A DNA stretch of 37,295 nucleotides, taken from the IMG/VR virus record IMGVR_UViG_3300009164_000015, positions 1 to 37,295 of that record; one strand, 5' to 3'. Origin of the DNA: a virus. Positions 18,684-20,524 of this stretch are shown here, one piece after another. The notes beneath the pieces are model-generated. The model was not told the DNA's origin, ran no database searches, and worked only from the letters and a program-made list of their open reading frames with translations. Position 1 is the stretch's first letter. The number at the start of each line of letters is the position of its first letter. The position numbers and the translations under genes are program-made.

Positions 18684-18962
18684 ATGCTTGAGAAGGAAAT
18701 CGAAGCCTACTTCATCTGGACGGTCGCGCGCCTTGGCGGCAAGACCTACAAGTTCAAGTCGCCGTCAATGCGCGGCGTGTCGGATCAGGTCGCGTGCCTG
18801 CCCAACGGCCAGACGTGGTTCGTGGAGCTTAAGAAGAAGGGCGGGCGGCTGGCACCGCTCCAGACCAAGTTCGCCGCCGACATGCTGATGCTGCAACAGG
18901 ATTACGCCTGTCTGTGGTCGCGCGAAGAGATCAACGAGTGGGCGCGGGAGACGGGCTTGTGA
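18684..18962 (+). CDS. VRR-NUC domain nuclease
   Basis: 92 aa from ATG 18684 (MLEKEIEAYFIWTVARLGGK), with GGGAG upstream. The fold signature is complete: N-terminal E4 helix, GVSDQVACLPNGQTWFVELK with the D...ExK catalytic set (about D32, E45, K47), then KGGRLAPLQ, the usual end of the VRR-NUC core. Such stand-alone nucleases are Holliday-junction or structure-specific endonucleases linked with SNF2-type helicases in phages, and a helicase gene follows here. The stop overlaps the GTG of the methyltransferase gene (GTGA). Confidence 0.9.
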   Translation: MLEKEIEAYFIWTVARLGGKTYKFKSPSMRGVSDQVACLPNGQTWFVELKKKGGRLAPLQTKFAADMLMLQQDYACLWSREEINEWARETGL

Positions 18963-19852
18963 GCGCGTATTACAACGAGATGGAGCCTTACGCCGCCCAA
19001 TGGCTGCGTAACCTCATAGACAAAAATTTGATAGCTAAAGGGGAAGTTGATGAGCGGTCTATTCTCGACGTGGCTCCTGCGGACTTGCGCGGTTTCACCC
19101 AATGCCACTTCTTCGCCGGTATCGGCGGCTGGAGCCTCGCCGCCCGCCTCGCCGGATGGCCCGACGAGCGGCCCCTGTGGACCGGAAGCGCCCCCTGCCA
19201 GCCCTTCAGCACCGCCGGTCAGCAAAAGGGCACGGCGGACGAGCGCCACCTCTGGCCCGTCTTTTTCAACCGCATTAGAGCCTGTCGGCCCCCTGTCGTC
19301 ATGGGAGAACAGGTTGCGGCAGCGGTTGGCAAGGATTGGCTCGACGGAGTGTGTGCTGATCTGGAAGGCATCGGCTACGCCACAGGGGCTGTCGTTGTTC
19401 CGGCTTGTGCCGTCGATGCGCCCCATCGAAGAGATCGCCTATGGTTTGTGGCCGACGCCGACATCGGCGCACGTCGGGAACGATACGAACCTGACTTGTT
19501 CGGGGGACGGTCGGACAACGCCGAACAAGCTCGGATGGGCGGCGGCGATTTCGATGTGGCCGACGCCATGCGCGTCGGACGACAGGGACCGGGGGCGTTG
19601 GGAAGACCCAGCGATTCAACGGCGGGTGACGATGGGCAAGCAAGTGATGCTGTCAATGCTGGCGCAGGGTTCTGGAGCGGCCATAGATGGGCCATCGGAG
19701 CAGACGGAAAAGCGCGGCGCGTTAAATCCGGCGTTCGTCTCTTGGCTCATGGGGTTCCCGCCAGAGTGGGAAAACTGCGCGCCTACGGCAATGCCATCGT
19801 CCCGCAAGTCGCGGCAGAAGTCATAGGAGCGTACCTTGACGCTGCGCCTTAG
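18959..19852 (+). CDS. C5-cytosine DNA methyltransferase, Dcm type
   Basis: 297 aa from GTG 18959, overlapping the previous stop. An N-terminal extension typical of phage members (YYNEMEPYAAQWLRNLI) precedes motif I HFFAGIGGWSLA (50-61), motif IV APCQPFS with catalytic C80, EQV in place of ENV (117-119), motif VIII RRDRLWFVAD (157-166) and motif X YGNAIVPQVAAEVI near the C-terminus. The region between motifs VIII and X is short and Gly/Asp-rich, so the target-recognition domain is minimal. It overlaps completely with a second open frame (19050-19826). It is an orphan enzyme, probably for anti-restriction. The Asn to Gln change in ENV deserves testing. Confidence 0.9.
   Translation: MSAYYNEMEPYAAQWLRNLIDKNLIAKGEVDERSILDVAPADLRGFTQCHFFAGIGGWSLAARLAGWPDERPLWTGSAPCQPFSTAGQQKGTADERHLWPVFFNRIRACRPPVVMGEQVAAAVGKDWLDGVCADLEGIGYATGAVVVPACAVDAPHRRDRLWFVADADIGARRERYEPDLFGGRSDNAEQARMGGGDFDVADAMRVGRQGPGALGRPSDSTAGDDGQASDAVNAGAGFWSGHRWAIGADGKARRVKSGVRLLAHGVPARVGKLRAYGNAIVPQVAAEVIGAYLDAAP
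19050..19826 (+). CDS. Overprinted gene inside the cytosine methyltransferase (WPTP-type protein)
   Basis: 258 aa in the +1 frame relative to the methyltransferase, from ATG 19050 with AAGGGGA eight bases upstream. It has an N-terminal Ser/Thr/Pro/Ala-rich part, then ENRLRQRLARIGSTECVLIW, LWPTPTSAHVG and MWPTPCASDD, and a C-terminal LNPAFVSWLMGFPPEWENCA end. I know these segments as a recurrent phage protein type found with Dcm-like methyltransferases. The WPTP codons are the VADA codons of the methyltransferase read one base later. Both frames look constrained, so both may be translated. The alternative is that the second frame is a by-product that databases have repeatedly annotated. Confidence 0.5.
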   Translation: MSGLFSTWLLRTCAVSPNATSSPVSAAGASPPASPDGPTSGPCGPEAPPASPSAPPVSKRARRTSATSGPSFSTALEPVGPLSSWENRLRQRLARIGSTECVLIWKASATPQGLSLFRLVPSMRPIEEIAYGLWPTPTSAHVGNDTNLTCSGDGRTTPNKLGWAAAISMWPTPCASDDRDRGRWEDPAIQRRVTMGKQVMLSMLAQGSGAAIDGPSEQTEKRGALNPAFVSWLMGFPPEWENCAPTAMPSSRKSRQKS

Positions 19853-19928
19853 ACCGTACCAAGACGACGCTGCCGACTTCCTGTTCAAGCACGACACCGC
19901 CATGATCCTCGCGCCGGTCGGCGATTAA
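19836..19928 (+). pseudogene. Truncated original N-terminus of the SNF2 helicase (30 codons)
   Basis: TTG 19836 with AGGAG six bases upstream opens a frame translating as MTLRLRPYQDDAADFLFKHD, TAMILAPVGD, stop at 19926. It matches the intact helicase N-terminus at 20441 (LRPYQ, ADFLF, D, A, then LAPVG) and breaks off exactly before the GAGKT of the Walker A loop. DNA is GC-rich like the rest of the helicase body, unlike the AT-richer second copy. It is a remnant left when the HNH segment entered. It is still translatable as a 30-residue peptide and its stop lies ten bases before the HNH start. Confidence 0.85.
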
Positions 19929-20524
19929 GGAGAAACTTATGCTTGACTTTTCGGGTGTACCTGACGATTGGCGCGCGGTGTTTGATGTGTGGAAGTACCG
20001 CGATGGGGCGCTATTTTGGCGCATTGCTGCCGGACGCGGCGTGTCTGTAAAGCGACCCGGCGACCTAGTCGCAACTGTACCAGATGGCCTTGGCTATTGT
20101 TATGTCACCTATAAGCGCAAGCATTACGCCGTTCATCGCGTCGTGTTCGCGCTTACACGTGGGTGGCTGCCGGAGTGTATCGACCACATAGACGGTAACC
20201 CAGGTAATAATCGCGAGGAAAATTTACGCCCCGCTACGCGGCTGCAAAATCAACATAACCGCAGGCGTAACAAACGTTCAAAATCAGGAGTAAAAAATGT
20301 CCATTTGCATCGGGGGCGTTGGCACATTCGCTTTTCTATAAACGGTAAAACTAAACATTATGGCGGGCACGACACTTTAGAAAAGGCGACCGTTGAGGCG
20401 GCGCGCATACGATTAGCTTTGCATAGAGGTTTTGCGCGCCATGCTTGAGCTAAGACCTTACCAACATGAATCGGCGGATTTTCTTTTTGAGCGCGACAGA
20501 GCCCTTTTGTTGGCACCTGTTGGC
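19923..20524 (+). mobile_element. HNH homing-endonuclease insertion carrying a replacement helicase 5' end
   Basis: Aligning the truncated N-terminus (last shared codon GGC 19920-19922) with the second copy (GGC 20522-20524) defines about 602 inserted bases. They hold the HNH gene plus 84 bases that re-encode the first 28 helicase residues. The segment is AT-richer than its flanks. The left junction is sharp at the Walker A glycine. The right crossover lies somewhere between 20524 and about 20545, where base usage returns to GC-rich. No inverted repeats, transposase or intron core are visible. Confidence 0.75.
19939..20448 (+). CDS. HNH homing endonuclease with AP2-like DNA-binding tail
   Basis: 169 aa from ATG 19939 with AAGGAG six bases upstream. 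The HNH_3 core is HRVVFALTRGWLPECIDHID, then GNPGNNREENLRPATRLQNQ (about residues 67-106), with the HH/N/N metal-site residues in place. A C-terminal AP2-like segment follows (SGVKNVHLHRGRWHIRFSIN, then GKTKHYGGHDTLEKA), typical of free-standing HNH homing endonucleases in phages. It cuts DNA at a target site lacking the gene, so repair copies it in. Its 3' end overlaps the ATG of the reconstituted helicase by 8 nt. Confidence 0.93.
   Translation: MLDFSGVPDDWRAVFDVWKYRDGALFWRIAAGRGVSVKRPGDLVATVPDGLGYCYVTYKRKHYAVHRVVFALTRGWLPECIDHIDGNPGNNREENLRPATRLQNQHNRRRNKRSKSGVKNVHLHRGRWHIRFSINGKTKHYGGHDTLEKATVEAARIRLALHRGFARHA

Follow-up and report, generated by a model that had tools for sequence, protein, structure and literature searches.

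An overprinted gene pair in phages and prophages that probably encodes a two-subunit cytosine-C5 DNA methyltransferase

A viral DNA sequence of 37,295 nucleotides (IMG/VR record IMGVR_UViG_3300009164_000015, hereafter termed the window) carries a cytosine-C5 methyltransferase gene, alpha (18959..19852, on the plus strand, like all parts of alpha and beta described below), whose GTG start overlaps the TGA of the gene upstream. A second frame, shifted by +1, is open inside alpha and could encode a protein of 258 amino acids, beta (19050..19826). The question raised by this locus is whether the nested frame is a gene and, if so, what its product contributes beside the methyltransferase. The initial annotation had described a 258-codon open reading frame nested out of frame, beginning with an ATG behind a ribosome-binding-like string and containing three segments said to be familiar from other phages. 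We recovered each of these elements: the +1 frame is open over 19050-19826 from ATG to TAG, the string AAAGGGGAA lies upstream of it (19037..19045), and the segments GSTECVLIW, LWPTPTS and LNPAFVSWLMGFPPEW are all found in beta, the last of them forming its C-terminal end. The WPTP codons are indeed the VADA codons of alpha read one base on (GTG GCC GAC GCC in alpha becoming TGG CCG ACG CC).

Coding selection in the nested frame

When the window was considered alone, the +1 frame was left open in approximately 15% of synonymous-codon shuffles (P about 0.15), which is not significant and, taken on its own, would suit a reading of the frame as an untranslated shadow produced by chance or composition in a GC-rich methyltransferase gene. 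The lack of a matching model for beta in Pfam, NCBIfam and PADLOC would also agree with such a shadow. Since the openness of a single sequence is unremarkable, the comparison of relatives is decisive. Besides other loci gathered through beta, eighty viral loci were picked by the alpha protein alone (they include near-duplicates and are not independent), and in these eighty stops were counted per sequence against a null of synonymous shuffles inside each gene. The +1 frame contained 14 stops for 214 expected, an approximately 15-fold depletion, and was fully open in 70 loci for 4.5 expected, whereas the +2 control frame contained 678 stops for 661 expected. In 142 other genes from these loci, +1 stops were likewise at expectation (1261 vs 1313), a result that speaks against a general influence of composition or of codon pairs. 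The depletion, confined to the +1 frame and to the alpha gene, is thus far beyond chance. Beta also matched PHROG 1008 (4.3e-27) and PHROG 31772 (5.9e-14), and the betas of its relatives matched these families in 112/112 and 110/112 cases, respectively.

Conservation of the beta frame was measured on 39 alphas of less than 65% identity against a synonymous shuffle null, with z-scores that ignore relatedness. It stayed at the null level (approximately 0) 5' of the beta start, reached z 16-24 across most of 19292-19469 and rose to z 41-47 across 19721-19790. The +2 frame was also raised, though in almost all blocks by less than the beta frame, since a base under double constraint stays conserved whichever frame is read.

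The use of each frame along the gene was determined by an approach in which the shuffle null is not involved, by assigning substitutions to alpha codon positions 1/2/3 in nucleotide alignments that favour neither frame. The upstream segment displayed proportions of 0.18/0.13/0.70, corresponding to ordinary coding in alpha only, and the overlap with motifs VI-VIII displayed 0.33/0.21/0.46, corresponding to dual coding. In the region of the WPTP units the proportions became 0.65/0.21/0.14, the pattern of a normal coding sequence when read in the beta frame and thus of coding in beta only, with an amino-acid identity of 0.82 for beta vs 0.56 for alpha. The segment of motifs IX/X was again dual-coding (0.40/0.21/0.39). 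Only beta therefore shows a clear pattern of amino-acid selection in the middle of the gene, where alpha, coding being confined to beta, is little more than a linker kept open through to motif X. A single gene used in turn by alpha only, by both frames, by beta only and by both again illustrates how overprinting divides selection.

Taken together, the stop depletion, the control on other genes and the substitutions by codon position refute the reading of the +1 frame as a shadow, to which we leave almost no probability; the beta-only substitutions of the unit region and the motif-IX match described below speak against it as well. The nested +1 frame is a genuine gene overprinted on alpha, with both frames under coding selection. 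A check of synonymous-site constraint in both frames, suggested in the initial annotation, has thus returned depleted stops, z-scores of 16-47 over the core segments of beta and dual coding, and its proposal of a genuine and widespread pair is borne out by stops, conservation and codon-position substitutions alike. This makes the nested frame a long same-strand phage gene that is strongly supported, widespread and largely unannotated.

The first 68 codons or so of beta (19050..19253) are weakly constrained (z 0-7) and precede a core N-terminal domain (GSTECVLIWKASATPQG..LVPS.RP, 19256..19448; z 10-24) that is dual-coding with alpha motifs VI-VIII. An ATG was present at the start site of the window's beta in 33/70 relatives, and a Shine-Dalgarno-like string accompanied it in 22/33 of these, compared with 4/37 of the relatives lacking the ATG (Fisher P 1.4e-6, with no correction for relatedness). 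The codon GAT at this site was only mildly enriched (39/70 vs 38% overall) because not every member starts there. In phage N15, stops interrupt the N-terminal stretch, the core is still present downstream and beta has a later ATG, near the DERHLWP codons of alpha; some other members also start later.

Probable division of the catalytic motifs between the two frames

Alpha matched the Pfam family DNA_methylase (PF00145) above cutoff (1.9e-16) and PHROG 363 (2.6e-79). The motifs that identify a cytosine-C5 methyltransferase are all present, namely I (FFAGIGG, 19109-19129), IV (PCQP, 19193-19204), VI (GEQV, 19304-19315), VIII (PHRRDR, 19421-19438) and X (GNAIVP, 19787-19804), and motif I, PCQ of IV, the E of VI, RxR of VIII and motif X are invariant or nearly so in A5. 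Motif IX is absent from alpha: no LxPxxxxxxMGxP precedes GNAIVP, and matches to solved enzymes stop at motif VIII, that of the alpha profile to M.HhaI being confined to 3-173. The AlphaFold model of alpha (pLDDT 77.7) is disordered over residues 183-233, the segment across the units, and of low confidence over residues 265-275.

Motifs II-III are also missing between I and IV. The first 49 residues of alpha (18962-19108), ahead of motif I, read YYNE..PYAAQWLRNLI..G.VDERSI.DV, resemble motifs II-III and are modelled by AlphaFold as strand-helix-strand-helix with a pLDDT of 96-98. This N-terminus is possibly a relocated motif II-III, for which the hhalign match is weak (E 0.05).

The counterpart of the absent motif IX was found in the other frame. 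The beta segment GALNPAFVSWLMGFPPEWENC aligned to one-piece methyltransferases of actinophages directly before their motif X (hhalign probability 92, E 5.6e-7), and alpha aligned with motifs IV-VIII of the same enzymes. The corresponding part of the window's beta, GALNPAFVSWLMGFPPEW (19716..19770), reaches z 41-47 and is followed by a C-terminal tail (..PTAMPSSRKSRQKS, 19771..19826) that is dual-coding with alpha motif X. A motif IX can be assigned to the small subunit indirectly, through hhalign, the actinophage segment before motif X itself having no match among solved enzymes. Judging from these alignments, beta is most likely the missing motif-IX half of the enzyme of alpha, a relationship that the initial annotation had not noticed. 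Solved structures gave no meaningful match to beta, and the quality of its AlphaFold model (pLDDT 60) does not allow its fold to be searched.

We retrieved 80 further loci from bacterial genomes using the C-terminal pattern of beta only, of which 74 could be scored. In 72/74, alpha spanned beta as an open frame and in the same register, and no stand-alone beta was seen among the 74. The two exceptions (L217 and L265) look like broken or odd copies. This bears on the alternative that beta is an independent protein, for example one acting in anti-restriction or regulation, and no methyltransferase subunit. The N-terminal domain of beta, without a match to a known fold, leaves some room for such a function, but a protein acting on its own would be hard to reconcile with 0/74 stand-alone copies and with a C-terminus that aligns to the motif-IX segment of the one-piece enzymes, precisely what alpha lacks. 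We regard this alternative as very unlikely.

The small subunit of M.EcoHK31I, a two-subunit m5C enzyme (YGGCCR), is reportedly encoded within the large gene in another frame, as described by Lee, Kam and Shaw in 1995, and such nesting of a small in a large gene is also seen for beta in alpha. Compared by published motif layout, M.EcoHK31I displays the same motif split as alpha and beta, its large subunit bearing motifs I-VIII together with X and its small one motif IX (PMC3404938); alpha correspondingly carries the I-VIII region and X without IX. The target-recognition domain of M.EcoHK31I is predicted in the large subunit (PMC3404938), whereas the recognition part appears to lie in the small subunit, beta, in the present case. 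By its motif split, the pair may be classed with M.EcoHK31I, as a variant. M.AquI (CYCGRG; PMC3404938), another two-subunit m5C enzyme, is likewise naturally split between motifs VIII and IX, but its small subunit carries motif X too; in the present pair motif X stays with alpha, and beta lies wholly inside the alpha gene.

On the basis of the coding selection on beta, its pairing in register with alpha in 72/74 loci, the motif-IX match and the M.EcoHK31I motif split, we propose, with a probability of about 85%, that overprinting allows one locus to encode both subunits of a cytosine-C5 DNA methyltransferase. The catalytic region of motifs I-VIII, and motif X, would come from alpha in frame 0. 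Beta, in frame +1, would start from its own ATG and ribosome-binding site within alpha and supply motif IX and, presumably, the recognition region as a chain of WPTP units of approximately 40 residues. Both products would be made and assembled, neither being active alone, and the enzyme would methylate phage DNA, probably as a protection against restriction. Single-protein tests or recodings of a phage 'DNA cytosine methyltransferase' may then look inactive for want of beta.

The same motifs could in principle be united by ribosomal frameshifting, joining the N-terminal half of alpha to the C-terminal half of beta and back, to give a one-piece enzyme with no separate beta. Along the DNA, VIII, units, IX and X follow one another as they would in a one-piece enzyme, and a 7-G tract in some prophages of Klebsiella type does fuse the alpha N-terminus in frame to the beta C-terminus. 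However, selection acts on the beta frame upstream of the joint, over motifs VI-VIII, where a frameshift has no need of it, the ATG at the beta start tends to be found together with a ribosome-binding string, and two shifts would be required for the return to motif X. We therefore consider frameshifting unlikely and retain separate synthesis of two subunits.

WPTP units and their probable role in target recognition

The WPTP-like units number mostly 1-6 per beta, with a median length of 40 residues (the largest cluster of units is over-merged by chaining). The window's beta contains two, the first of cluster M7 (19449..19556), which lies in the beta-only coding region and recurs in enterobacterial phages, and the second of cluster M18, with a linker (19557..19715), which is shared with L085 and L086. 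These two relatives, whose alphas are 81-83% identical to that of the window, have one unit added or one replaced. More generally, a comparison of 19449-19715 with L085-L088 and L005 showed close relatives differing by whole WPTP units that were gained, lost or replaced, a pattern which suggests recombination of units.

The recognition units of multispecific phage methyltransferases are about 40 residues long. Such enzymes of SPR and phi3T (Wilke et al. 1988, a reference in PMC8936443), likened here by layout, are one-piece proteins with tandem recognition units between motifs VIII and IX, where the WPTP units also lie. Because target-recognition domains sit between motifs VIII and IX (PMC5944983), the WPTP units are probably such domains, and the relaxed alpha frame and constrained beta frame over the unit region point to recognition in beta.

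The one-piece actinophage enzymes carry LPTP units in the methyltransferase frame, followed by the motif-IX-like segment and then motif X. Across these units and motif IX, no constraint is seen on their +1 frame, which contains 49 stops for 59 expected; further upstream, in a part where LPTP units are borne by the +1 frame itself, stops are depleted (5 for 25 expected). Related units are found in either frame, depending on the phage. A group of actinophage methyltransferases (L158, L169 and L171-L182) has LPTP units in both frames, with 1-2 units in the +1 frame and a stop near the onset of those in the methyltransferase frame.

From the selection on the beta frame, the related units in the methyltransferase frame of actinophages and the whole-unit differences among close relatives, we lean slightly towards a model in which the overprinted subunit would read DNA through interchangeable WPTP units of approximately 40 residues, which phages gain, lose or swap to change or add targets, while the catalytic frame is merely kept open. 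Should the WPTP units indeed serve in recognition, they would constitute a modular phage code for the choice of methylation targets.

Occurrence, annotation and neighbouring features

The arrangement is common to hundreds of phages and prophages, the phage hosts being Pseudomonadota, Bacillota, Bacteroidota and cyanobacteria and the prophages residing in many genera. Both open reading frames are already annotated in Escherichia phage K1ind2 and Paenibacillus phage Pagassa, where the nested frame at the position of beta is a 'Mte8-like protein' and gp60, respectively; neither record states a two-subunit arrangement. RefSeq annotates alpha only in the E. coli prophage loci examined, and PHROG 1008 and PHROG 31772 are both named 'DNA methyltransferase', a name that hides an overprinted motif-IX subunit. 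We found no paper describing the phage arrangement in the open-licence literature. The pair is thus mostly unannotated, its family is already in PHROGs and its kind is known from M.EcoHK31I. A search of E. coli genomes for a restriction-modification neighbour that might represent M.EcoHK31I led to four regions, which on examination were prophages.

Broken copies also occur, in L217 and L281 (E. coli EC20 prophage). Alpha ends early in L217 with beta still open, and L281 is annotated as two alpha pseudogene pieces.

A run of G, 7, 8 or 9 long, lies in the overlap of several loci (L116, L119, L126, L129-L131, L135, L139 and L150), all of them Klebsiella-type P2-like prophages, at about 2320-2660 of each locus. 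Eight G keep both frames, nine end alpha early and seven join the alpha N-terminus to the beta C-terminus, so that tract length could possibly bring about phase variation of the two-subunit enzyme.

Finally, at 19836-19928 and 19939-20448 of the window, alpha is followed by a truncated copy of the SNF2 helicase N-terminus (LTLRLRPYQDDAADFLFKHDTAMILAPVGD*), then by an HNH homing-endonuclease gene and then by the full helicase. This arrangement is likely the scar of a homing insertion.
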